Shown: piece by piece, positions 2,030-57,950 of the stretch
How the letters are laid out: the number at the start of each line of letters is the position of its first letter
How positions within the stretch are numbered: position 1 is the stretch's first letter
Assembly (NCBI RefSeq): GCF_015234135.1
Contig: NZ_JADGIK010000004.1
Coordinates: 1 to 64,000 of the forward strand
Direction of reading: 5' to 3'
DNA length: 64,000 bases
From: Faecalibacter rhinopitheci
GTDB lineage: Bacteria; Bacteroidota; Bacteroidia; Flavobacteriales; Weeksellaceae
Program-made: the position numbers and the translations under genes
Notes under the pieces: model-generated
Told to the model about the DNA's origin: nothing
The model's input: only the letters and a program-made list of their open reading frames with translations
Database searches by the model: none

Positions 2030-3139
2030 TTATTTAAGATTATTCGCTAAGAATTTCTCAAGTTCTTGTAATGACATATCTTTCTGTATAATTTTACCTT
2101 GTTGATCGACTAAATAACTTGTTGGGAAAGATGTTATCTTATTGGCATTAGCAAATGTTCTATTTTCATCTAACGCATTCAACCAAGGTAATTCATATTT
2201 CTCGATGACTTGTTTTGTTTGGTTAACATACTTCGTATGTTCGGCTGCAATTGCTTGAATTTCGAATCCTTTTGAATGATATGTGCTGTAAAGTTCTTTT
2301 AATTTTGGAAACGTTACCAAACAAGGCTTACACGTGCCGAACCAAAAGTCGATTAATGTATATTTATTTTTTGATAAATCTGTTAGATAAGGTTGTCCAT
2401 CGAAAGTTTTAAGCGTAGTCATTTCAGTAAATATTTTTCCTATAGCAAATACTTTATTTTGATGAATATTTTGAGTTAAAACTGTATAAGGATAAGATTG
2501 TTTGATGATAGGATCAAACTGATTTAGAAGTTCATCGTAAGTATACTCTTTATATGATTCGTATTTAGCTATTATTTTCCAAAGTGCAATTTCTGATTTT
2601 GAATTAGTTTTGATGTATGATTTTAATAAATCCATTTCTTCCAACCAATTTCTTTTATACCAAGTATTCAAAGAATCTTGCTTTTCTTTAGGTGTATCAA
2701 ATTTATACTTTAAGAATAATTGACCTCGATAATCATTGTAAGCATTCCACTCTTTTATATTTTGTTTAAAGTGTTTTTCGTAAGCTGTTCTTTCAGGAAT
2801 ATCATTTTTAATGGAGCTGTGAAAATCTTTTAATTTTAGATTTAATGGTGCATTCTTTAAATAAAATACTTCTGAATTTGCAGAGAAATTATTTTTGAAT
2901 TCTGTGTTTAATCGATATGGAGAAGCAAAATTCTGTTGATCAAATTTAATTTTGAATTGATAATCTTTTGTGTAGGCAGAATCGAAAATAATAGGAGAAT
3001 AGTATTCTTGTGGCAATTCTCTATTGATATAAAATTTATCTCCATTTTGGATGCTATCGTATGTAATAACTAATGGTATTTTCTGTGCATTTACAATTCC
3101 GAAAACTGATAAAAATATTGACGTTAAAATGTGTTTCAT
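2030..3139 (-). CDS. Exported TlpA-like thioredoxin-fold protein
   Basis: About 369 residues when started at the ATG of MKHILTSIFLSVFGI. A longer frame begins nine codons upstream, but the signal peptide fixes this start. The N-terminal two thirds is an all-beta/helical region as in DUF4369-type TlpA proteins. The C-terminal 130 residues are a thioredoxin fold with the redox pair in FGTCKPCLVTFPKL, and cis-Pro context SFPTSYLVDQ. Family knowledge: periplasmic thiol:disulfide reductases that maintain cysteines or help cytochrome maturation. The target here is not identifiable. It precedes the GLPGLI gene. Confidence 0.85.
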   Translation of the reverse strand: MKHILTSIFLSVFGIVNAQKIPLVITYDSIQNGDKFYINRELPQEYYSPIIFDSAYTKDYQFKIKFDQQNFASPYRLNTEFKNNFSANSEVFYLKNAPLNLKLKDFHSSIKNDIPERTAYEKHFKQNIKEWNAYNDYRGQLFLKYKFDTPKEKQDSLNTWYKRNWLEEMDLLKSYIKTNSKSEIALWKIIAKYESYKEYTYDELLNQFDPIIKQSYPYTVLTQNIHQNKVFAIGKIFTEMTTLKTFDGQPYLTDLSKNKYTLIDFWFGTCKPCLVTFPKLKELYSTYHSKGFEIQAIAAEHTKYVNQTKQVIEKYELPWLNALDENRTFANANKITSFPTSYLVDQQGKIIQKDMSLQELEKFLANNLK

Positions 3140-3243
3140 TGTGTTAATTTTAATAAATGTAAACACATCGTTGAAATTTAAATCATCTTTGGAACAAGTT
3201 TAAAATATAATTAACTAACCTTAACAATTTGTTGTATAAAATA

Positions 3244-3274
3244 AAAAAAGCCCAACTAATAAAAGTTGAGCTTG
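3244..3274 (-). terminator. Terminator of the queA-rlmN-prenyl synthase operon
   Basis: Imperfect stem AAGCCCAACT / AGTTGAGCTT, followed on the minus strand by a run of seven T. It lies about 25 bases after the stop of the polyprenyl synthase gene. Confidence 0.8.
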
Positions 3275-3296
3275 GATTATATTACTTATTAAAATA

Positions 3297-4274
3297 TTAT
3301 TTATCTCTTGTCATCACGTAATTCACTAATAATTCTAATGATTTACGGTATTCGTTATCGGGCATTTCTTTTAGTATTTCTAAGGCATCTTTTGCATACT
3401 TTTCCATTGTGGTACGAGTATATTCTATGCCTCCATTAGCTTTTACAAAATCAATGACTTCACGAACACGTTTTTTGTCATTATTGTGACGTTTTACAGA
3501 ATTGATTAACCATTTACGATCCTTATCATCCACATTATTTAATGTATAGATTAATGGCAATGTCATCTTTTGTTCTTTGATATCGATTCCTACAGGTTTA
3601 CCAATGGCATTGGAAGTTGTATAATCGAATAAATCATCTTTGATTTGAAATGCTATTCCAATTAATTCTCCAAAACGATGCATCTTTTTAGCTAACGCAT
3701 CATCAACTCCAACAGAACGTGCTCCAGCTTCGCAACATGCTGCGATTAGAGTCGCTGTTTTCATACGGATGATTTCGTAGTATACTTCTTCAGTAATATC
3801 TAATTTTCGTGCTTTTTCTAATTGTAATAATTCACCTTCAGAAAGTTCTTGGATGGCTACAGAAACAACTTCTAATAAGTCAAAATCTTTGTTTTTACAA
3901 GAAATTATTAATGTTTTAGATAATAAATAATCACCTACTAAAACGGCAACTTTATTTTTCCAAATGGCATTAAGAGAGAAGAATCCACGACGTAATTGGC
4001 TATCATCTACCACATCATCGTGCACTAATGTAGCGGTATGAATAAGTTCTATGAAAGAAGCAGCACGATATGTTTTTTCTTGCATTTCGCCTAGCATTTT
4101 AGCGGAAAGAAACACAAACATAGGTCGCATTTGCTTTCCCTTACGACGAACTATATAATGAGTAATACGGTCTAAAAGTGAGACATTACTCTTCATAGAT
4201 TCAAAGAATTTGTTCTCAAATAATTTCATCTCCTTTGCAATAGGAGCCTTGATTAAATCAACAGTGTTACCCAA
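3297..4274 (-). CDS. Long-chain polyprenyl diphosphate synthase
   Basis: A 325-residue trans-isoprenyl diphosphate synthase. The first Asp-rich motif is HDDVVDD (D86, D87, D90) and the second KDDLFDY (D213, D214, D217). Both bind Mg-diphosphate. The chain-length site five residues before the first motif is a small Ala (A81), which in this family allows long products. Flavobacteria use menaquinone-6, so a hexaprenyl diphosphate product for the quinone side chain is the best guess, but octaprenyl synthase (IspB-like) is equally compatible from sequence. It is the last gene of a tight minus-strand operon, with a 5-base gap to the preceding gene. Confidence 0.9.
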   Translation of the reverse strand: MGNTVDLIKAPIAKEMKLFENKFFESMKSNVSLLDRITHYIVRRKGKQMRPMFVFLSAKMLGEMQEKTYRAASFIELIHTATLVHDDVVDDSQLRRGFFSLNAIWKNKVAVLVGDYLLSKTLIISCKNKDFDLLEVVSVAIQELSEGELLQLEKARKLDITEEVYYEIIRMKTATLIAACCEAGARSVGVDDALAKKMHRFGELIGIAFQIKDDLFDYTTSNAIGKPVGIDIKEQKMTLPLIYTLNNVDDKDRKWLINSVKRHNNDKKRVREVIDFVKANGGIEYTRTTMEKYAKDALEILKEMPDNEYRKSLELLVNYVMTRDK

Positions 4275-4279
4275 TTTTT

Positions 4280-5236
4280 TTATTTTTGGTTAGTAAAATT
4301 TTTAAAGCAATGTAAAATTTGTTTAGCATGAAATCCTTTAAATTTGAATTTTTCACCACTCATACAAATTTGATTTTGATCGGCTGAAGATAAGGAAATT
4401 CCTTCTAATTGTCCTAATTGTGTCGTAAAACCTAAAGGTAAAATAGTAGTTTTTGGACTGTTTGTAAATATTAAATCTGAATTATCTTTTGGTAAATCAA
4501 ACCATTGTAATATTGCCAAAGTTTCTATTGTGTATCCTATAATGTAAAGACCTTTATCATTAGATTTAGTACTTATATGAGCGCCAGTTACCATAAAATC
4601 GGTAGGATAAACTTCTATCCTTTTGGCTGCATGTCTTTTTGTTGAATCGATAGGAATTGTATAATGTGTAGTAGCTTTATTTGTCCATTCCTTAGTTAGG
4701 ACATGAATTTGATTATTATAAATAAAAAACGCTTCTGCATCCCAATTTGTAGTTAAATTCTTATATCCAAAATGTTCTTGTTCTGGATAGAAAAATTCAA
4801 TTTTATGAGCTTGTAAAGACTGAAATTCTTTATTTAAATCAATCTCATCACGGTTAATGTAATAAATCGCTAAATCTTTTCTATTACCTAAATTATTTCC
4901 AAAATCTGCGAAGAATAATTTATTATCATCTATTGCAATTTCTTCCCAATCAATATTAGGGGCATTTGTAGTAGAAATTGTTTGAATGATATTGCCATCT
5001 TTAGTAAATCGATATAATTCTGATTTATTTCCAGAATCATTTAATCCCCAAAATGAAACTACACTCTTATCTCGATCTTCGTATGATAACGCTGAAATTT
5101 CCTCTAATTGTAGGGGTAACTCAGTTGTTATAAATTCAATTTCGTCCACAGAAATGGTATCTTTAACCATCGCATCTTGGGCATAATTAAATTTTAAAAA
5201 TAGAAAAAGAAATAAGAGTGTAGTTAATATTTTCAT
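4280..5236 (-). CDS. Exported protein of unknown function, probable beta-propeller
   Basis: A 318-residue protein with a clear signal peptide (MKILTTLLFLFLFLKFNYAQ). The mature part is rich in short beta strands with recurring segments such as FWGLNDSGN, DWEEIAIDDNKLFFADFGNN and WDAEAFFIYNNQIHVLTK. This resembles esterase-like/SMP-30-type propellers that bind Ca and small substrates. I cannot name a substrate or an active site. It sits between rlmN (8-base gap) and the prenyl synthase (5-base gap), so it shares their transcript although no functional link is apparent. Confidence 0.7.
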   Translation of the reverse strand: MKILTTLLFLFLFLKFNYAQDAMVKDTISVDEIEFITTELPLQLEEISALSYEDRDKSVVSFWGLNDSGNKSELYRFTKDGNIIQTISTTNAPNIDWEEIAIDDNKLFFADFGNNLGNRKDLAIYYINRDEIDLNKEFQSLQAHKIEFFYPEQEHFGYKNLTTNWDAEAFFIYNNQIHVLTKEWTNKATTHYTIPIDSTKRHAAKRIEVYPTDFMVTGAHISTKSNDKGLYIIGYTIETLAILQWFDLPKDNSDLIFTNSPKTTILPLGFTTQLGQLEGISLSSADQNQICMSGEKFKFKGFHAKQILHCFKNFTNQK

Positions 5237-48374: not shown

Positions 48375-49112
48375 ATGAAATTAAAATCTACATTAATCGC
48401 ATTATTATTTGCTGGGTTTGCATTTGCACAAATTCAATTCCCACAAGCAAGTAACAAATCTGAAATAGAACAAACTATCGGTTTTACAAAAGTAGAAGTG
48501 GATTATTATCGTCCGAATTTGAATAACAGATCTGCATTTGGAGGTATTGTACCTTTTGGAGAAGTCTGGAGAACAGGTGCCAATAACAATACAACGATAG
48601 AATTTAACACTGATGTATTATTGGAAGGTAAGCCTTTATTGAAAGGAAAATATTCTTTATATACTATACCAACAGAAAAATCATGGAATGTAATATTTTA
48701 TAAGAATTCAGATAATTGGGGAAATCCTAAGACGTGGGATGAATCTCAAGTTGCTCTAAAAGTTACAGTTCCTGTTTATAAAACTTCAGAAAAAGTAGAA
48801 ACATTTACAATTGGGTTTGATGAGGTGAATGTTAATTCAGGAAAACTAGTCTTTCAATGGGATATAACAAAGGTAAAAGTTAATATTGATGTTCCAACGC
48901 ATCAAAAAGTTTTACAAAATATTCAGACACAATTAAATGATAATTCGTCAGCGCGAGATTTTTATAGTGCAGCTAATTATTACTATATGCAAAAATTAGA
49001 CTTAAAAAAGGCTAAGGAATGGATAGATATAGCGCTTGCTAAAGACACAAATTCACCAGAATATTTCACTGAACTAAAATCTAAAATAGAATCAGAATTA
49101 AAGAAAAAGTAA
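48375..49112 (+). CDS. DUF2911 family exported protein
   Basis: A 245-residue protein with signal peptide MKLKSTLIALLFAGFAFAQ. The DUF2911 core has VEVDYYRPNLNNR, IVPFGEVWRTGANNNTTIEF, LLKGKYSLYTIPTEKSWNVI and NDNWG-like NSDNWGNPK. A TPR-like helical tail follows (SARDFYSAANYYYMQK, LKKAKEWIDIALAKD). The family is exported and common in Bacteroidota with no known activity. It probably shares a transcript with the DUF5522 gene. Confidence 0.9.
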   Translation: MKLKSTLIALLFAGFAFAQIQFPQASNKSEIEQTIGFTKVEVDYYRPNLNNRSAFGGIVPFGEVWRTGANNNTTIEFNTDVLLEGKPLLKGKYSLYTIPTEKSWNVIFYKNSDNWGNPKTWDESQVALKVTVPVYKTSEKVETFTIGFDEVNVNSGKLVFQWDITKVKVNIDVPTHQKVLQNIQTQLNDNSSARDFYSAANYYYMQKLDLKKAKEWIDIALAKDTNSPEYFTELKSKIESELKKK

Positions 49113-49120
49113 ACTTAAAA

Positions 49121-49150
49121 AAAACCACTCTTTTAAAAGAGTGGTTTTTT
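49121..49150. terminator. Terminator after DUF2911 and after jetC
   Basis: Perfect palindrome, 14-base arms AAAACCACTCTTTT and complement, T-run on both strands. It ends both converging operons and lies only eight bases after the jetC stop, so nothing further is expected in the jet transcript. Confidence 0.9.
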
Positions 49151-49157
49151 AATTTGA

Positions 49158-52100
49158 CTAAATATCAAATAATTCTTTTTGTGCTTTATATTGCGTAATT
49201 GGCATATCGTATAACCACGAATATTTTTCTTCTTTTCGTTCTACATAATGCACAAACGAAATATGATCTTCAACGATGTGAATGTTATCTGCAGGCGTTA
49301 CTACAAGCAATTGTAATTTTAACTGTTCACACAAACGTAACAAGTATTTTGCTTTATCCTCATCTTGTGCCTTAAAAGCTTCATCAATAGCTATAAATCG
49401 GAATGTATTTGACTTTTCCTTGCGCATTAAATTAAACTGATAAGCAATCGCAGATCCTAAAATAGTGTAAGTTAATTGGGCTTTTTCACCACCAGATAAA
49501 GCACCCATATGTTCATACGTTTTTACTTTTTCTTGATTATCTCGTCTAAATTCTTCGGCTTTGTAGTTAAACCAATAACGAACATCCATAACCTTAGCTC
49601 GCCAATCTTCCTTGTTTAGTTTTTTGATTAAGGGAGCAATATGTTCATTAAAATGATCTCGTTTTTCTTCAAATAACATCAACCCATCATTTCCTGTTGA
49701 AATTGCTCGGTTTAATAATGACTTGAATTCTTGTATCTCAGCTATATAGTGTGAATTTGCGATTAATTGAATGTACGTCGTATATTCTTTTGTATTATAG
49801 TCGATTTCAGCAAGAGATTCATTCAATAAGGCAATATTTTCCTGTATACTTTCTGACCAATTTTCAAAAAACATTCGAAAATCACCAATCTTATTCATAA
49901 TCGTTTCTTGTAAATAAGACTCAAACTTAGTTTCAAAACGAGGTAAATTATCCTCATTTAGTTTCTGATAAAAATCTTGATATTCCGAAGCTAATTCTAA
50001 ATGTGACGAATCGGGTAGAGTAGAAGCTTCAGATCTCCAATCCTTATATTTCAGAATAATTTCTTCTTTCGGATTTTTAAATTCATTAATCTTCTGCTTG
50101 ATTTTATCTTCAGTCAAACGCTTCGAATATTCCAAACTCTTAATTTGAGTTTCTAATTCTTTTTGGAATTCAGTTTGTTTTAGTTTAATCGAATAATAAT
50201 CAATCGCTAATAATTCTTGATGTTTTTCCTCGAAAACGGAAATATCAACTGCTTCTACTGTTTTTAAAATCGATTCATTTCGGTTAATTTCTTTTGTAAT
50301 CTGTTGAATTTGAGTTTCTATTTTAAAAATCTCACGATTTAATTCATAAATATCTTTCTCCGTCAATTCTTTCAGCGCATTTTGCGCAATTTCTAATTCG
50401 TTTTGTAAACCTTCTGTTCGGTTCGAACCTGAGTTTAATACTTCGATTAATCGATTTTTTTGTTCAATTTCAGCAATTACATTCGACGCATCAATTACAG
50501 AGATATCTCTAAATGTATTGGTGATTTTAGAAATCGTTTCCTTGATTTGATCTAAAAGATAAATCTCTTTTTGTGAAGATTGAATTTGAATGTTAATGTT
50601 TTCAAGTTGATTTTCAACCGTTTTTAAATCTTCATAAATAGCTTGTGTCTTCGACGTGTTTTCCCAACCTAAAATAAAATTTTCTTTACGTTTATTTTCC
50701 TCACGGTCATCTTTCTGGATATTACCGTTAGAGAATACTAAAGTTCCGTTTGGTAATAAAGTTGTTTGATTAGTTAAGGTTGTTTCATTACAAATCGCAT
50801 CAAATTTTTGCTCGATTAAATCTTTTATCCATTTGGCGTAAATACTTTCATGTTTAAAATCCAATTGAAAAATTAAATGATTGGCTGCTGCTTGCGGTTT
50901 TAACCCATCTATAGACGTATATCCTTTATAAGCCAAAATCTTGATTGATGCATTTAAATCATTTTGTTGAATGAAATTTTCAACTTGATTCAAATACTTT
51001 TCGGGTACAATAATTTGGGTCGCAAACGAATGTAAAATACTTTCAATAGCTATTTCCCATTCAGGATTTTGAATTTTAATTAATTCGGCAACAAAAGGAA
51101 TTTCGGCTTGTGAAGCATTAATTTCTTGGACGATTAGATCTCGAATCTCAGCAATTCGACCAGTAATATTATTTTGATTGGAAGCTAAGAAGTCAATCTT
51201 TTCTTTTGCAATTTTAATTTCTGAGACGAAGCGATCAGCTTGATTTTTTAGTAAACGAATTTCTTCTAAAAGGTGCTCGTTTTTAACATGGTTTTCTACT
51301 GAAATTTCCTCAATTCGAACAGAATTATGCTGAAAATCTGTTGCATTTGGATCAGTAATTAAACCTAAAATTTGAACCAGTTGATTGTAATTTGTTTGTT
51401 TTACTTCAATATCAGCTTTTACTTTTTCTAATTTTGCTAAATCAATTTTAATTTGTTCAATTTGTTGCCCAACATTATCCGATTTGATCTGAACCGTTAA
51501 ATTCGTTTCTAAATCTTTTAATTGAGCTTCTTTATCTTTTAAACCATTCAATTGAGTTTTGAATGCCTCGTATTTCTGATTCGCTTGGTTAAATTCATCA
51601 TTCGCTAAATGCAATCCTTTTTGTGCAAACCAAAAGACAGCGGTATCCTTAGAATGGGTTAATGTTTCTAGTTTTGAATTTAATTCTTGAATTTTAGACG
51701 CATGTTCGTTAATAGGGGCTAAAAATTTCAATTGATCTTTTACTTTTTCAATATTAATTTTGGCTTCCATTAATGTGTTGAAACTCTCTTTCAATTGTAA
51801 AAACTCAGCTTCGGCATACCATTCTTCCAACATATTGGTACGAATAAATTCATCCAAATCTTCCAAAACTTTTACACCAACCACTTGATTAAATAACGTT
51901 AAAGATTGTGAAGATTTCATTCCAAAAAGATCAGCCATACGTTCACCGTACGCTATTGGACCATCCATCAGCTCAATTTTCTTCTTCGTTGTATTGGTGT
52001 TGTATTTTTTATCTAAAGTCTTTTTCCAATTTCCTTTTTGATCAAAGTGACTAAAGTCGTCTTCGATTGTTAGGGGCACATGCGCAATTCCGAATGTTCT

Positions 52101-52532
52101 TTTCAATTCATCATTAGAAAACCAACGCGCTTGGAATAATGTAATCTTCTTTCCATCTTGATTATCAAAATGCGCAAGAATTATAGAATAGGTCGTTTTA
52201 TCACGTAAAGATTTTGTTAAAGTACCTAAATCTCCATCGCGTTGAATATGGGCGTAATTTCCTAAAACATAAGTTTCTTCTGTACGGTCGCCTTTTTTAT
52301 CCACACCAGAAGATTGATTGTAGAAACGATCTTTTTTAGCTGGAACTAATAGCGTTAAAAGTCCATCGATAAACGTACTTTTTCCCGATGCATTTGCACC
52401 AGTTAACAACGAATTATTTCCTTTTGGCTGAATACGAAAAATACGATCGGTAAAGGTTCCCCAATTGTAAACTTCCATGTATTGTAGACGAAATCCAGCT
52501 TCGTCCGACGTCGTACTAAATAGATTCAACAT
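49158..52532 (-). CDS. jetC: JetC: MukB/MksB-like SMC ATPase
   Basis: A 1124-residue SMC-type ATPase. Walker A GANASGKS (45-52) is near the N terminus. A long coiled coil (about 250-470) leads to a hinge (about 480-600), a second coiled coil follows (about 650-900), then the signature LSGGEKAQ (1012-1019) and Walker B FIAIDEAF (D1050, E1051). All ATPase residues are intact. This is the JetC/MksB branch: the N-terminal LQYMEVYNWGTFTDRIF and the partner genes (DUF4194, DUF3375) separate it from SbcC. Such complexes extrude DNA loops; in Wadjet they recognise small circular DNA and hand it to JetD. Here no JetD follows. It overlaps jetB by 17 bases. Confidence 0.92.
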   Translation of the reverse strand: MLNLFSTTSDEAGFRLQYMEVYNWGTFTDRIFRIQPKGNNSLLTGANASGKSTFIDGLLTLLVPAKKDRFYNQSSGVDKKGDRTEETYVLGNYAHIQRDGDLGTLTKSLRDKTTYSIILAHFDNQDGKKITLFQARWFSNDELKRTFGIAHVPLTIEDDFSHFDQKGNWKKTLDKKYNTNTTKKKIELMDGPIAYGERMADLFGMKSSQSLTLFNQVVGVKVLEDLDEFIRTNMLEEWYAEAEFLQLKESFNTLMEAKINIEKVKDQLKFLAPINEHASKIQELNSKLETLTHSKDTAVFWFAQKGLHLANDEFNQANQKYEAFKTQLNGLKDKEAQLKDLETNLTVQIKSDNVGQQIEQIKIDLAKLEKVKADIEVKQTNYNQLVQILGLITDPNATDFQHNSVRIEEISVENHVKNEHLLEEIRLLKNQADRFVSEIKIAKEKIDFLASNQNNITGRIAEIRDLIVQEINASQAEIPFVAELIKIQNPEWEIAIESILHSFATQIIVPEKYLNQVENFIQQNDLNASIKILAYKGYTSIDGLKPQAAANHLIFQLDFKHESIYAKWIKDLIEQKFDAICNETTLTNQTTLLPNGTLVFSNGNIQKDDREENKRKENFILGWENTSKTQAIYEDLKTVENQLENINIQIQSSQKEIYLLDQIKETISKITNTFRDISVIDASNVIAEIEQKNRLIEVLNSGSNRTEGLQNELEIAQNALKELTEKDIYELNREIFKIETQIQQITKEINRNESILKTVEAVDISVFEEKHQELLAIDYYSIKLKQTEFQKELETQIKSLEYSKRLTEDKIKQKINEFKNPKEEIILKYKDWRSEASTLPDSSHLELASEYQDFYQKLNEDNLPRFETKFESYLQETIMNKIGDFRMFFENWSESIQENIALLNESLAEIDYNTKEYTTYIQLIANSHYIAEIQEFKSLLNRAISTGNDGLMLFEEKRDHFNEHIAPLIKKLNKEDWRAKVMDVRYWFNYKAEEFRRDNQEKVKTYEHMGALSGGEKAQLTYTILGSAIAYQFNLMRKEKSNTFRFIAIDEAFKAQDEDKAKYLLRLCEQLKLQLLVVTPADNIHIVEDHISFVHYVERKEEKYSWLYDMPITQYKAQKELFDI

Positions 52533-53097
52533 AAGATTCTAATTTGTTTTTAAATTCTTGCAACTGGTCTAATGTTACTTTTTCTTTGATGATACGATGA
52601 ATTTGATATTTGGTTTCGAAGTCGTTTTTATCAATTTCTTTTAAATAACCTAATTCAACAATGCGTCGAATATTGAGGTCTAAATCTTTTAAAAGTTTGA
52701 CTTTATTGTAGGTTTCTGGAAGAAATAATTCGACTTCTTCTTTAATTTCTTGAGAAGAAATGAATTTTTCGCTTACTTCGAATTGGGTTGGATTTTGATC
52801 AAAATCTTCTAAACTTTGACGTAGAACGACTAATATAATTGAAGCTTCAAATCCAATTTTTCGTTTAGAAACAAGTCCTAACGTATTTCCTTCTCGGTCT
52901 TCTAATTCTTTTAAATATGCAAAACCTTCGTCTTTCTTCACGACTAATTCTAAACCGATTTGGTTTAGATATTCTTGAATTTCAACTTGGTAATTGATCA
53001 CATCTATCCAAAGGTTTTGTGAATTTTCAATCGGTTGTTTTAGCAATTTTACGATCGCTTTTGAATAGGGTTTTATATGGTGTTCTAAACTGCTCAT
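52516..53097 (-). CDS. jetB: JetB: DUF4194 (MksE-like) kleisin-associated subunit
   Basis: A 193-residue winged-helix protein matching DUF4194/MksE. Features: GLELVVKKDEGFAYLKELED, ASIILVVLRQSLEDFDQN and a C-terminal helical wing (FETKYQIHRIIKEKVTLDQL). It acts as the KITE-type subunit that binds the kleisin JetA in the condensin-like complex. It overlaps jetA by four bases (stop/start ATGA) and jetC by 17. Length is normal for the family. Confidence 0.9.
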   Translation of the reverse strand: MSSLEHHIKPYSKAIVKLLKQPIENSQNLWIDVINYQVEIQEYLNQIGLELVVKKDEGFAYLKELEDREGNTLGLVSKRKIGFEASIILVVLRQSLEDFDQNPTQFEVSEKFISSQEIKEEVELFLPETYNKVKLLKDLDLNIRRIVELGYLKEIDKNDFETKYQIHRIIKEKVTLDQLQEFKNKLESYVESI

Positions 53098-54551
53098 GAT
53101 TTAAATGTAATGGTAGGAATTTGAATCGATTTTTGTTTTTCTTGATTGAAAATAATTTCTTGTGTTTCATCAAGTTTATCGTGTTCAAATTCGTTGGTTA
53201 GACTTAGGAAAGCAAATAATTCGGGTAAGCCTTTTTGTAAGCCACCTGAATTTTCGATGAGTTGTTTTAAATTTAAATTCGTTTGAATTGAAATTCCTTC
53301 CTTCATACGTTCTCTTATCTGTTCCTTGTCGATCGCATATTTATTAAAAATACGCTCTAAATGTTCAGATTTTGAAATGTCTGTTTCTGCTAATTTCGGT
53401 GCACCATTGTAGATAATTTCTTGATTTTGCTCCAAAGTTAATTTACGATCAAACGGTAAATGAATATTAATTCCATCATCTACTAATAAAGAAATGTCTG
53501 GCGTTTCTTTCTGTTGACTAATTTTAATCAAAGATTTTTTGATTGCCTGAATAGTTGTCTTTGTTGCTTTCGAGTTGGATACTTGTGTTTCACGAATTAC
53601 TTTACTTAATTTTTCAGCCATTTTATCATTGGCTTTATACACTTTTTGACCTGCTGCGTGCAGATGCTTTTTCATGTTTTTTAAGTACGTATCTTGAATT
53701 TCTATTTCCTTGTCAGAAAGTGTTGCATACAATTCTTGGGTTAACTTGTCCCATTGGTTTTGCAAAGATGGATTTAATAAGAAATTCCAGAACGCATAGA
53801 AACTTTTTCCTTGTTGACTTTCTTTCAGAGCATCAAGGGAATTAAACGTAAAATCAAGAATTTCAGATTTCGTTAAATTTCCTTCATTATGTTTTTGATA
53901 GATTTCTTTCGTAATCGTTTTAAAATTATCTTCAACTTCTTTAAAATCAGATAATAATTCTTTCGCTGCTTGTGTAATTTGATTTACACGCGGTATAATT
54001 TCGTAATCTTCATAAACCTTTAATGATTCACCTAATCGTAGATGCATCATTTCTTGCTCAATCTCCTGTTTTCGTGCTTCTAAAATAGCTAAACGTTCTT
54101 CTTTATTATCGTTCGAAAGTTCAACCAATTCTTTCAGTTGAGTAACAATAGTTTTAAATTTGGATTCTGTACCAACATATTCATCTTTGTCTAATGAATT
54201 AATCCAATCTAATGTTTTGCTGGTATGTGATGAAAGTTCATAGAAAACTTCTCCATTCTCAGTTTGGAAATTGGATAAAAATCCACGATTCGTCCAATCG
54301 GTAATGTATTTTTTGGCCTTTAATTCATATGAATCAAAAACTTGGATGTCGCTTTCTTCATCATTTTCGATTTGGCGATATTCTAAGTAATCCGTTAAAC
54401 GAGAATGAATGATTTCTGCTGCCAAAATGCGGTGTTTTTCCGCAAATTGTTCCGCCAGAAATAGAATAATCATTTCTCGATTTCGCATTTTCAGTAAATC
54501 TAGACTGGGAGATCGCTGTAAAATGGATGAAATTTTTGAACCGTCTAACAT
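53094..54551 (-). CDS. jetA: JetA: DUF3375 (MksF-like) kleisin subunit
   Basis: A 485-residue protein of the DUF3375 family. The N-terminal winged helix (about 1-120) begins RSPSLDLLKMRNREMIILFL. The middle is a long helical region (130-330) with RKQEIEQEMMHLRLGESLKV, and the C terminus (340-485) is another winged helix. Kleisins bridge the heads of the SMC dimer. First gene of the three-gene jetA-jetB-jetC run. 130 bases separate it from the pentapeptide-repeat gene upstream on the same strand. Confidence 0.9.
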   Translation of the reverse strand: MLDGSKISSILQRSPSLDLLKMRNREMIILFLAEQFAEKHRILAAEIIHSRLTDYLEYRQIENDEESDIQVFDSYELKAKKYITDWTNRGFLSNFQTENGEVFYELSSHTSKTLDWINSLDKDEYVGTESKFKTIVTQLKELVELSNDNKEERLAILEARKQEIEQEMMHLRLGESLKVYEDYEIIPRVNQITQAAKELLSDFKEVEDNFKTITKEIYQKHNEGNLTKSEILDFTFNSLDALKESQQGKSFYAFWNFLLNPSLQNQWDKLTQELYATLSDKEIEIQDTYLKNMKKHLHAAGQKVYKANDKMAEKLSKVIRETQVSNSKATKTTIQAIKKSLIKISQQKETPDISLLVDDGINIHLPFDRKLTLEQNQEIIYNGAPKLAETDISKSEHLERIFNKYAIDKEQIRERMKEGISIQTNLNLKQLIENSGGLQKGLPELFAFLSLTNEFEHDKLDETQEIIFNQEKQKSIQIPTITFKS

Positions 54552-54681: not shown

Positions 54682-55254
54682 TTAATCAATTTTGATTTGA
54701 AAAGTATCCAATAATCCAATGCAATTTTCTTTCGAAAAATGGGTATTTTTAATCTTGTTCTGTGTGGGATTGATGCTGAAATTTTCTGCAGTGATTAAAT
54801 TCGCTTTTTCTAAGTTAGTTTGATCAAAAATAGATCCCTTTAAATTACAATTTTCAAAATAGGCTTGGGATAAATCTGCGTAAGCAAAATCTACATTTTC
54901 TAATGCGCAATTTTTGAAATGAATTTTTTGAAGTTGTAAATTATAAAACGAAGAATCATTTAAAATACAAGTCGTAAATTTTACTTTTAAGCCAAATTTA
55001 TTACACACTTCAAGCGAAAAACCAATCATTTTACATTCAGTAAAAATCACATCCTGAAAACTTGTCCCGTTGATTTGTGTAAGACTTAAATCGCAACCAA
55101 TGAATTCACATTGTATAAAATTAAAATCATTTAAATCAACTCCATTCAAATTACAATAAATGAATTGACATTGTTCGTAATCACCTTTTAGAAGAGAAGT
55201 CTTTGTAAAATCATTTTTACTAAATTCTTGGGCGAAAGTGTAATTCTTGTGCAT
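54682..55254 (-). CDS. Pentapeptide repeat protein, Qnr/McbG-like
   Basis: A 190-residue protein made almost entirely of pentapeptide repeats from about residue 20 to 155 (CQFIYCNLNGVDLNDFNFIQ, CEFIGCDLSLTQ, CALENVDFAYADLSQAYFEN). The pattern is A/C-D/N-L/F-x-x in two blocks broken near residue 95, as in Qnr and McbG, whose right-handed beta helix mimics DNA and binds gyrase. Whether this one binds gyrase cannot be told; chromosomal relatives are common in flavobacteria. It lies upstream of jetA on the same strand, after the terminator of the VOC gene, so it has its own promoter and could read into jetA. Confidence 0.87.
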   Translation of the reverse strand: MHKNYTFAQEFSKNDFTKTSLLKGDYEQCQFIYCNLNGVDLNDFNFIQCEFIGCDLSLTQINGTSFQDVIFTECKMIGFSLEVCNKFGLKVKFTTCILNDSSFYNLQLQKIHFKNCALENVDFAYADLSQAYFENCNLKGSIFDQTNLEKANLITAENFSINPTQNKIKNTHFSKENCIGLLDTFQIKID

Positions 55255-57302: not shown

Positions 57303-57386
57303 GGAGAGGTGCCAGAGCGGTAATGGAGCAGATTGCTAATCTGTCATCGGGTAACCGATGCCAGGGTTCGAGTCCCTGTCTCTCCG
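57303..57386 (+). tRNA. tRNA-Ser(GCT), copy 1
   Basis: Cloverleaf with acceptor GGAGAGG / TCTCTCC, long variable arm (ATCGGGTAACCGAT) as expected for Ser, anticodon GCT in CAGATTGCTAATCTG, and T-arm GGGTTCGAGTCCC. No CCA in the gene. Confidence 0.96.
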
Positions 57387-57427
57387 CAGTAGTTCATTAA
57401 AATATTTATTTTATCTACCAAGAAATT

Positions 57428-57502
57428 CGGGGTGTAGCGTAGCCCGGTCATCGCGCCTGCTTTGGGAGCAGGAGGTCGCAGGTTCGAATCCTGCCACCCC
57501 GA
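57428..57502 (+). tRNA. tRNA-Pro(TGG), copy 1
   Basis: Acceptor CGGGGTG / CACCCCG, anticodon TGG in CCTGCTTTGGGAGCAGG, T-arm CAGGTTCGAATCCTG. No CCA in the gene. Confidence 0.96.
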
Positions 57503-57532
57503 CGAATTTCTAGTAATAGAAAATTTTGGATT

Positions 57533-57606
57533 GGCCCAATAGCTCAGCTGGATAGAGCAACTGCCTTCTAAGCAGTAGGTCTCAGGTTCGAATCCTGATT
57601 GGGTCA
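57533..57606 (+). tRNA. tRNA-Arg(TCT), copy 1
   Basis: Acceptor GGCCCAA / TTGGGTC (one G:U pair), anticodon TCT in CTGCCTTCTAAGCAG, T-arm CAGGTTCGAATCCTG. Confidence 0.96.
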
Positions 57607-57646
57607 CAAAATCGAAGTAGATAGAAAGTAAATTCGAAAGAGTTTA

Positions 57647-57730
57647 GGAGAGGTGCCAGAGTGGTAATGGAGCAGATTGCTAATCTGTCATCGGGTAACC
57701 GATGCCAGGGTTCGAGTCCCTGTCTCTCCG
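57647..57730 (+). tRNA. tRNA-Ser(GCT), copy 2
   Basis: Same as copy 1 apart from one base in the D-stem region (CAGAGTGG in place of CAGAGCGG). Anticodon GCT. Confidence 0.96.
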
Positions 57731-57756
57731 CTTTTTCTGAATTTTGAATTACACCT

Positions 57757-57831
57757 CGGGGTGTAGCGTAGCCCGGTCATCGCGCCTGCTTTGGGAGCAG
57801 GAGGTCGCAGGTTCGAATCCTGCCACCCCGA
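57757..57831 (+). tRNA. tRNA-Pro(TGG), copy 2
   Basis: Identical in sequence to copy 1 through the mature region. Anticodon TGG. Confidence 0.96.
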
Positions 57832-57862
57832 CAAAACTTCTAGCAATAGAAAATTTTGGATT

Positions 57863-57936
57863 GGTCCAGTAGCTCAGCTGGATAGAGCAACTGCCTTCTA
57901 AGCAGTAGGTCTCAGGTTCGAATCCTGACTGGATCA
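57863..57936 (+). tRNA. tRNA-Arg(TCT), copy 2, with compensated acceptor stem
   Basis: Acceptor GGTCCAG / CTGGATC. Compared with copy 1 two pairs have changed on both sides, C:G to T:A at position 3 and A:T to G:C at position 7. The rest of the tRNA is unchanged. Anticodon TCT. Confidence 0.95.
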
Positions 57937-57950
57937 CAATCTAATGTTTA

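Follow-up and report, generated by a model that had tools for sequence, protein, structure and literature searches.

The window analyzed here comprises bases 1–64000 of a 306,342-base contig (NZ_JADGIK010000004.1) of Faecalibacter rhinopitheci (Weeksellaceae), whose genome has 2,890,047 bases in 44 contigs and a completeness of 99.99%. It contains a compact cassette of three genes, jetA, jetB and jetC, that code for the subunits of a structural maintenance of chromosomes (SMC) type motor of the type I Wadjet family, without the gene of the nuclease JetD. By its sequence, the cassette appears to be a Wadjet-I-derived complex (MksFEB type) from which JetD was lost in the ancestor of the copies found in this genus. 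Its features are the following (aa, amino acids).

53094..54551, minus strand: jetA (mksF), DUF3375 kleisin-type subunit, 485 aa (open reading frame, Pfam, PADLOC)
52516..53097, minus strand: jetB (mksE), DUF4194 KITE-type subunit, 193 aa (open reading frame, Pfam, PADLOC)
49158..52532, minus strand: jetC (mksB), SMC ATPase, 1124 aa (open reading frame, Pfam, PADLOC, motifs)
52377..52400, minus strand: JetC Walker A, GANASGKS, residues 45–52 (coordinates from residue numbers)
49482..49499, minus strand: JetC signature motif, LSGGEK, residues 1012–1017 (coordinates from residue numbers)
49374..49397, minus strand: JetC Walker B region, FIAIDEAF, residues 1046–1053 (coordinates from residue numbers)
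49119..49150, no strand assigned: terminator-like hairpin with a T-run, beginning at the 8th base past the jetC stop (sequence)

The overlaps are of 4 bases between jetA and jetB (53094–53097) and of 17 bases between jetB and jetC (52516–52532). The original prediction, made from the letters alone, had described DUF3375, DUF4194 and MukB-like ATPase genes overlapping in this way, and open reading frames, Pfam and PADLOC all agree with it. In Pfam, JetA matched DUF3375 (E 3.8e-84), JetB matched DUF4194 (E 4.8e-32) and more weakly MksE (PF21980, E 8.7e-11), and JetC matched SbcC_Walker_B (E 5.2e-22). The PADLOC models gave 2.5e-185 for JetA1, 2.1e-58 for JetB1 and 3.8e-284 for JetC1, the latter spanning JetC residues 5–1120. 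The MukB, MukE and MukF families were absent among the matches of the cassette proteins, the best of which were DUF3375, DUF4194 and JetC1, and MukB is a longer protein of near 1490 aa. Two further statements of the prediction held as well: the ATPase motifs of JetC are intact, here and in all five copies that we found in the genus (all with full-length JetABC frames), and the terminator described eight bases past jetC corresponds to the hairpin listed above, which occupies the place where relatives have jetD.

The absence of JetD extends beyond the window. That no jetD lies near jetC in the 64 kb had already been noticed, and the profiles JetD_C (PF09983, E up to 1) and DUF3322 (PF11795) found none in the whole 2.89 Mb genome either. 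A JetD protein of a relative, searched against 14 genomes of the genus, gave only chance-level matches in two genomes that lack JetA (E 0.159 and 2.96), so that with two families and one protein yielding nothing, the option of a JetD elsewhere in the genome, which had been left standing, is not borne out. Nor did tblastn with the JetD of two relatives reveal jetD remnants, either at the cassette or where the site is empty: matches were at chance level only, with E of at least 0.11. Among 296 sampled genomes of the family, 11 had DUF3375 and six of these had JetD_C over the cut-off. The JetA-positive members without JetD_C are exactly the five of the genus (G000, G021, G061, G073 and G104, out of 14 genus genomes), of which G021 and G073 are single-contig genomes, while the search was positive in 6 of 6 outside it. 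In the order sample DUF3375 was matched in 6 of 395 genomes, and in the phylum sample in 62 of 395 (59 over the cut-off). JetD_C, tested in 44 more of these genomes (42 from the 61 further positives in the phylum sample and two from the order sample), was present in 36. Of the eight remaining, G711, G822 and G882 had a DUF3375 match below the cut-off only; the others are G838, G654 (a partial DUF3375 match), G754, G816 and G820. JetD is the rule among DUF3375 genomes and its absence the exception, with G838 as a second, independent and clear JetABC-only case. G838 (L129) has a canonical SMC and, judged by eye, a hairpin-like stretch and a gene resembling those of TonB receptors after jetC. A side observation concerns the phylum-sample family f32, mostly of 2–3 Mb genomes, in which DUF3375 was found in many of the sampled members; some have several JetD_C matches (G779) and none was found in G654, G754, G816 and G820.

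Phylogeny points to loss. In trees of JetC (23 rows), JetA (24) and JetB (24), with midpoint roots and some long branches that meet, the five genus copies form one clade (bootstrap 100, 100 and 98, respectively). For JetC and JetA this clade is nested with support among sequences from JetD-positive genomes (G156, G369, G955 and G006, plus G674 for JetA), with G543 outside, and this nesting indicates that jetD was lost rather than absent from the start. The position of the JetB clade among the JetD-positive relatives lacks resolution. Each tree requires two changes for the label “no JetD”, in the genus and in G838. The JetC and JetA of the genus have longer branches than their JetD-positive sisters. 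In G156, which is among the nearest relatives (identities of 56% for JetA, 69% for JetB and 49% for JetC), jetD overlaps jetC by 4 bases. In G006 (L032:1501-4920) jetC lies in two frames (2185-4920 and 1501-2034) next to a full-length jetD frame, either a real inactivation or an assembly error; the JetC tree and the 17-row set of basic residues described below include only the larger piece of this JetC, and the column counts leave it out. G674 had no JetC in the fetched stretch, and G838 was kept out of the JetD-positive sets. As an aside, G369 (L123) and G955 (L131) belong to different classes and have nearly identical JetA (branch sum of ca. 0.03), with JetC proteins that are 98% identical in the N-terminal head and 63% in the first coiled coil, which suggests transfer across classes and a mosaic jetC.

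The genes that remain seem to be maintained. The ratio of nonsynonymous to synonymous substitution rates (dN/dS, by NG86) between G021 and G073 was 0.036 for JetA, 0.028 for JetB and 0.038 for JetC, at dS of 0.34–0.45, indicating strong purifying selection and no decay of jetABC. In the other pairs dS was near or above 0.8 and often saturated, and their ratios (0.04–0.24) are unreliable. A recent deletion of jetD with jetABC decaying, which the original prediction had named as a contrary outcome, is not the situation here: the five copies share one JetD-less ancestry and are strongly constrained.

Constraint is not evenly distributed along JetC, and the region that stands out is the hinge.

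50637..51125, minus strand: JetC hinge segment, residues 470–632, with conserved positions altered and poor in K and R (alignments, predicted SMC-hinge fold)
50703..50729, minus strand: hinge motif NGNIQKDDR, JetC residues 602–610 (coordinates from residue numbers)

We took the JetC proteins of 13 JetD-positive rows and considered the columns that at least 75% of them conserve, defining the hinge as residues 475–615; this set of rows omits the near-copies G293, G054 and G646, which are among the 17 JetD-positive rows of the basic-residue test. Changed in all five genus copies were 14 of 40 hinge columns, compared to 2 of 82 in the N-terminal head, 2 of 17 in the first coiled coil, 3 of 33 in the second and 3 of 56 in the C-terminal head. 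For hinge against elsewhere (14/40 vs. 10/188) the Fisher test gives 1.7e-6, a value to be taken as a guide only because the columns have a common ancestry and the regions were delimited after an initial inspection. The pattern persists at stricter cut-offs, on small numbers (7/28 vs. 3/123 at 85%; 3/15 vs. 2/93 at 100%). In three of the eight control lineages the same test gave p of 0.43 (G543), 0.07 (G763, with the highest hinge count, 15/43) and 0.64 (the G156 group); since controls were mostly single sequences and “changed in all five” is stricter, the regional distributions are comparable and the overall rates are not. In identity to eight JetD-positive outgroups, the hinges of the five lie 10–16 points below those of their JetD-positive sisters, a gap that narrows to 0–4 and 0–8 points in the two heads and to 0–8 and −2 to 4 points for the coiled coils.

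Much of the hinge change affects charge. Residues 470–632 of JetC contain 15–17 lysines plus arginines in the five and 23–31 in 14 JetD-positive rows, in spite of an A+T-rich genome (G+C 0.30) that should favor lysine. At positions 556, 599 and 604 all 17 JetD-positive proteins have a basic residue and none of the five does; position 529 is basic in 16 of 17 and in none of the five, and position 498 in 17 of 17 and in one. Other basic hinge positions (512, 560, 607 and 610) are kept in all five. Over residues 602–610 the JetD-positive relatives have [KR]H..DD, of which the basic residue 604 and H605 are lost in the five. Half of the ten hinge columns that are basic in at least 75% of the 17 proteins were lost in all five copies, and none of the 19 such columns in the heads (p 0.002). 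The G000 segment is nevertheless predicted to fold (pLDDT 89.8) into a model that resembles SMC hinges (best PDB match E 1.9e-5, TM 0.57); a model of the G156 hinge served for a glance at secondary structure only. In E. coli Wadjet, joint substitution of three channel residues (K591, R524 and K601) is reported to lower the bypass of obstacles, and the hinge with the adjacent coiled coils is described as dispensable for loop extrusion (PMC12647877). In one pairwise alignment with the JetC of E. coli GF4-3, matched by hand and possibly off by one or two residues, residues 599–604 span the place of K591 (which aligns with 601, variable among JetD-positive proteins), 529 is two residues from R524, and K601 falls at a variable place. 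We infer from this pattern that, with the nuclease lost, selection on the bypass gate was relaxed or redirected.

No comparable signal was found where JetD might dock. Counting conserved columns changed in all five and in a control group (G156, G369, G955 and G674, the latter left out for JetC), we obtained 9/75 vs. 21/89 for JetA, 1/33 vs. 5/39 for JetB and 37/239 vs. 63/275 for JetC as a whole. Only the distribution within JetC differs (residues 500–624, 13/34 vs. 4/32); in JetA residues 400–479 the counts of 4/14 and 1/12 are too few. In Corynebacterium glutamicum, MksF, the counterpart of JetA, is reported to bind MksG (PMC10123090). The idea of a decayed JetD interface was dropped, JetA showing no excess of loss over the control. 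Loss of docking through the N-terminal IFDR motif reported for JetB (PMC10586767) was also discarded: the motif is not recognizable in the JetD-positive relatives compared either, so its absence in the genus says nothing.

The genomic background is one in which a second condensin was looked for and not detected. The original prediction had proposed a check for Smc-ScpAB or MukBEF. Of 43 genomes, nine exceeded the cut-off of the canonical SMC profile TIGR02168, all of them outside the order, and none of the 32 members of the order did, the 14 genus genomes among them (no search aimed at ScpA or ScpB was made); G763 and G916, from other families of the class, also failed the cut-off. An SMC_N search in the genus gave no frame of ca. 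1180 aa among the matches listed, and the frames that did match have lengths that fit what we take to be RecN, RecF and SbcC. On these searches, JetABC is the only SMC- or MukBEF-type complex found in these genomes. The lack of TIGR02168 agrees with a report in which two Bacteroidetes of a mouse gut community had no homologue of known condensins (PMC10197239).

Comparison across the genus shows an ordinary chromosomal site and a mobile cassette. The neighbors in the window are:

48375..49112, plus strand: DUF2911 gene, the next gene, convergent with jetC (open reading frame, Pfam)
54682..55254, minus strand: pentapeptide-repeat gene upstream of jetA, an ordinary neighbor at this site (Pfam, synteny)

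The upstream genes are the same in all five genomes (amidase, a 159-aa gene, a VOC protein and the pentapeptide gene). In G104 the cassette lies between the pentapeptide gene and that of PNPase, and in the cassette-less G109 and G113 these two genes are ca. 56 bases apart; among the nine genus genomes without jetABC, eight have the pentapeptide gene and in seven the fetched stretch includes PNPase. A recN tree of the 14 genomes places G104 in the other half of the genus, so that two changes are needed to explain the presence of jetABC: either the cassette would be old and have been lost in some lineages, or it would have entered this site a second time. Besides, G021 is closer to G061 than to G073 in recN (0.883 vs. 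0.815), the amidase (0.852 vs. 0.803), the histidine kinase (0.833 vs. 0.711) and the regulator (0.843 vs. 0.750), and the VOC gene keeps this species pattern (0.881 to G073 vs. 0.913 to G061). The cassette reverses it: identities of G021 to G073 are 0.932 for jetA, 0.940 for jetB, 0.920 for jetC and 0.862 for the pentapeptide gene, versus 0.843, 0.880, 0.816 and 0.698 to G061. The step in identity is sharp at the end of jetC and blurred on the other side. The nuclease-less cassette thus moved between species together with its pentapeptide neighbor and without jetD, which makes it seem valuable by itself and behave as an accessory locus. A scan of named genomes for close matches, which misses distant relatives, gave two loci (Faecalibacter macacae and a metagenome-assembled genome labelled Myroides), and a search for relatives on plasmids gave 10 records, all below 60% identity and none named as a Bacteroidota genus.

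Some other observations were made around the site. The pentapeptide protein weakly resembles the Qnr/MfpA and HalA models, in no case coming near the cut-off. A promoter scan was uninformative (27 sites against 29.7 expected). The window carries a Ser-Pro-Arg tRNA triplet as a tandem pair (57303–57937), as do L031, L033, L034, L035 and L119, and L115, L116, L117, L121 and L122 carry it once; an 87-aa open reading frame (57344–57607) lies over the tRNA genes of the window.

Among known systems, the closest is type I Wadjet (JetABCD, or MksBEFG), with which the cassette shares the JetA, JetB and JetC families and the gene order; outside the genus it is most closely related to JetABCD operons. 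It differs in that JetD was not found and in the loss of basic hinge residues. The Pseudomonas aeruginosa condensin MksBEF, without MksG, is a precedent for SMC, kleisin and KITE subunits working without a nuclease, although MksBEF is said there to co-occur typically with SMC-ScpAB or MukBEF (PMC7485682), whereas no canonical SMC was over the cut-off here; this likeness is one of subunit composition. As in MksBEF, the genes are those of MksB, MksE and MksF without MksG. The SMC ATPase of the cassette is intact and under purifying selection. By membership the cassette is not a complete Wadjet, its gene content fits MksBEF, and its descent is from type I Wadjet. MukBEF is likewise a nuclease-free SMC complex and is reported to have no hinge channel (PMC12647877); JetC differs from it in its size, in matching JetC1 models and in a hinge still predicted to have the SMC-hinge fold. 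Eukaryotic Smc5/6, a KITE-type SMC complex described as silencing circular extrachromosomal DNA (PMC10586767; PMC10512200), offers an analogy only.

The explanation that we prefer is that the Wadjet-I-derived complex, having lost JetD in the ancestor of the genus copies, would have been kept as an ATP-driven, loop-extruding and non-cutting organizer of DNA, acting in the mode of MksBEF. With no nuclease to be triggered when extrusion round a plasmid is finished, selection on the obstacle-bypass gate of the hinge would be relaxed or changed and the motor would stay constrained. We give roughly even chances to JetABC being such a nuclease-free loop extruder, and infer that it is expressed, extrudes loops and folds DNA. 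As to its target, we lean towards the cell's own nucleoid, with JetABC serving as an accessory condensin where a canonical SMC is lacking; a close rival is that it would restrain incoming circular DNA and not cut it, the lack of canonical SMC favoring the chromosome and the patchiness and exchange of the cassette favoring incoming DNA.

Several observations weigh against this explanation. Exchange and patchiness are more usual for defense or accessory genes and disfavor a plain core-condensin role, and 9 of the 14 genus genomes have neither a canonical SMC over the cut-off nor JetA, from which it follows that JetABC is not an essential condensin. Conserved basic columns were lost also in the two coiled coils (1/2 and 3/7), and the coiled coils of the genus JetC are lower in K+R as well, so that the change concerns the periphery of arm and hinge and not the hinge alone. 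Among the five copies, the hinge shows lower identity than the heads (0.61 vs. 0.90 and 0.93 between G000 and G021, compared to 0.82 vs. 0.85 and 0.90 between the JetD-positive G156 and G955), which could be the early decay of one part. Lastly, G838, also JetD-less, keeps positions 498, 529, 556, 599 and 604 basic (not 527), and the hinge change is therefore not an automatic result of JetD loss.

The best-placed alternative is that JetABC still acts against plasmids or phages, independently of a nuclease, by extruding small circular DNA and restraining or silencing it through compaction in the way of Smc5/6. We regard it as a real but minor possibility. The presence in only 5 of 14 genus genomes, the exchanged tract of G021 and G073 and the descent from a family of defense systems all speak for it, as does the report that restriction by Smc5/6 silences viral gene expression from extrachromosomal DNA (PMC10586767). 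The E. coli mutant in the hinge charges (3A) reportedly remained able to restrict a 4-kb plasmid in vivo (PMC12647877), and the hinge change alone is therefore compatible with such a role. However, the five have lost hinge charges, and such charges are reported to aid the bypass of obstacles on decorated DNA (PMC12647877); in a Bacillus subtilis assay all four Wadjet subunits were reported as required (PMC10586767). The surroundings do not resemble a defense island, a setting that we considered and rejected: the genes at the cassette and at the sister sites, including those between the pentapeptide gene and PNPase, look ordinary (window neighbors by Pfam, the others by eye or synteny).

An unlinked or unrecognized effector acting in trans, a nuclease or a host factor with which invading DNA would still be destroyed, seems to us improbable. 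The strong constraint on the motor would fit it, and SMC-like sensors with varied effectors are described, e.g., Lamassu (PMC10586767). The candidates at the locus did not hold, however. A gene of 194–202 aa without a Pfam family over the cut-off lies 3′ of jetC in three of the five genomes, but not in G000 or G104, nor in the window, and the pentapeptide gene is an ordinary site neighbor present also in eight of nine genomes without jetABC. No gene was found next to the cassette in all five and missing from the jetABC-less genomes, and a dedicated neighbor as new effector was rejected. JetA, JetB and JetC have 485, 193 and 1124 aa compared to 486, 192 and 1132 in the JetD-positive G156, lengths that indicate no fused domain, and the five genomes gave no JetD homologue. 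Of the three outcomes first envisaged, DNA organization without a nuclease is thus the best supported; a JetD elsewhere was not found, and the unknown effector has no consistent neighbor in all five to represent it. In the three genomes mentioned, the genes 3′ of jetC form a set of four (L031:1875-4523, L035:2647-5292 and L033:15022-17643) coding for a protein of ca. 200 aa, a membrane-like protein of ca. 220 aa, a histidine kinase and a LuxR-type regulator; the Pfam search covered the four L031 genes and, for L033, the first gene only.

That jetABC is a functionless relic on its way out after losing its effector is strongly disfavored. The nine genus genomes without it and the quick divergence of the JetC hinge and first coiled coil are what such a relic would give, but not the dN/dS of 0.03–0.04 in the closest pair, the full-length frames and conserved ATPase motifs of all five copies, or an exchange that followed the loss of jetD in their single ancestry. 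Weaker still, to the point of being negligible, is a jetD missed by assembly or search: the window genome is in 44 contigs, but jetC is followed by the hairpin and another gene well inside a 306-kb contig, the single-contig G021 and G073 are equally JetD-less, and the same search detected JetD in all six JetA-positive family members outside the genus.

The hinge change, the missing canonical SMC and the exchange between species go beyond the original prediction. A review has proposed that MksBEF, and perhaps MukBEF, arose from plasmid-defense complexes by loss of the nuclease (PMC10586767). We found no report of a JetD-less Wadjet of this kind in the titles and abstracts that searches of the open-access literature listed. 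The proposed step from defense to condensin is old and hard to study, and this genus makes the loss of the nuclease testable, because it offers a nuclease-less jetABC under strong selection together with JetABCD relatives and sister species with an empty site for comparison. One can ask here how a Wadjet motor acts once the nuclease is gone, and whether the loss frees the bypass gate of the hinge from selection. In addition, counting jetABC without jetD as “Wadjet defense” may mislabel genomes. More tentatively, and as a reading that we consider less probable than not to be right in full, a Wadjet cutter would have turned into a non-cutting organizer in a lineage lacking canonical SMC and lost charges of its hinge gate, in parallel to the channel-less hinge of MukBEF. 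If true, this would be an independent and still recent replay of the defense-to-condensin step, in which JetABCD, JetABC-only and neither could be compared.

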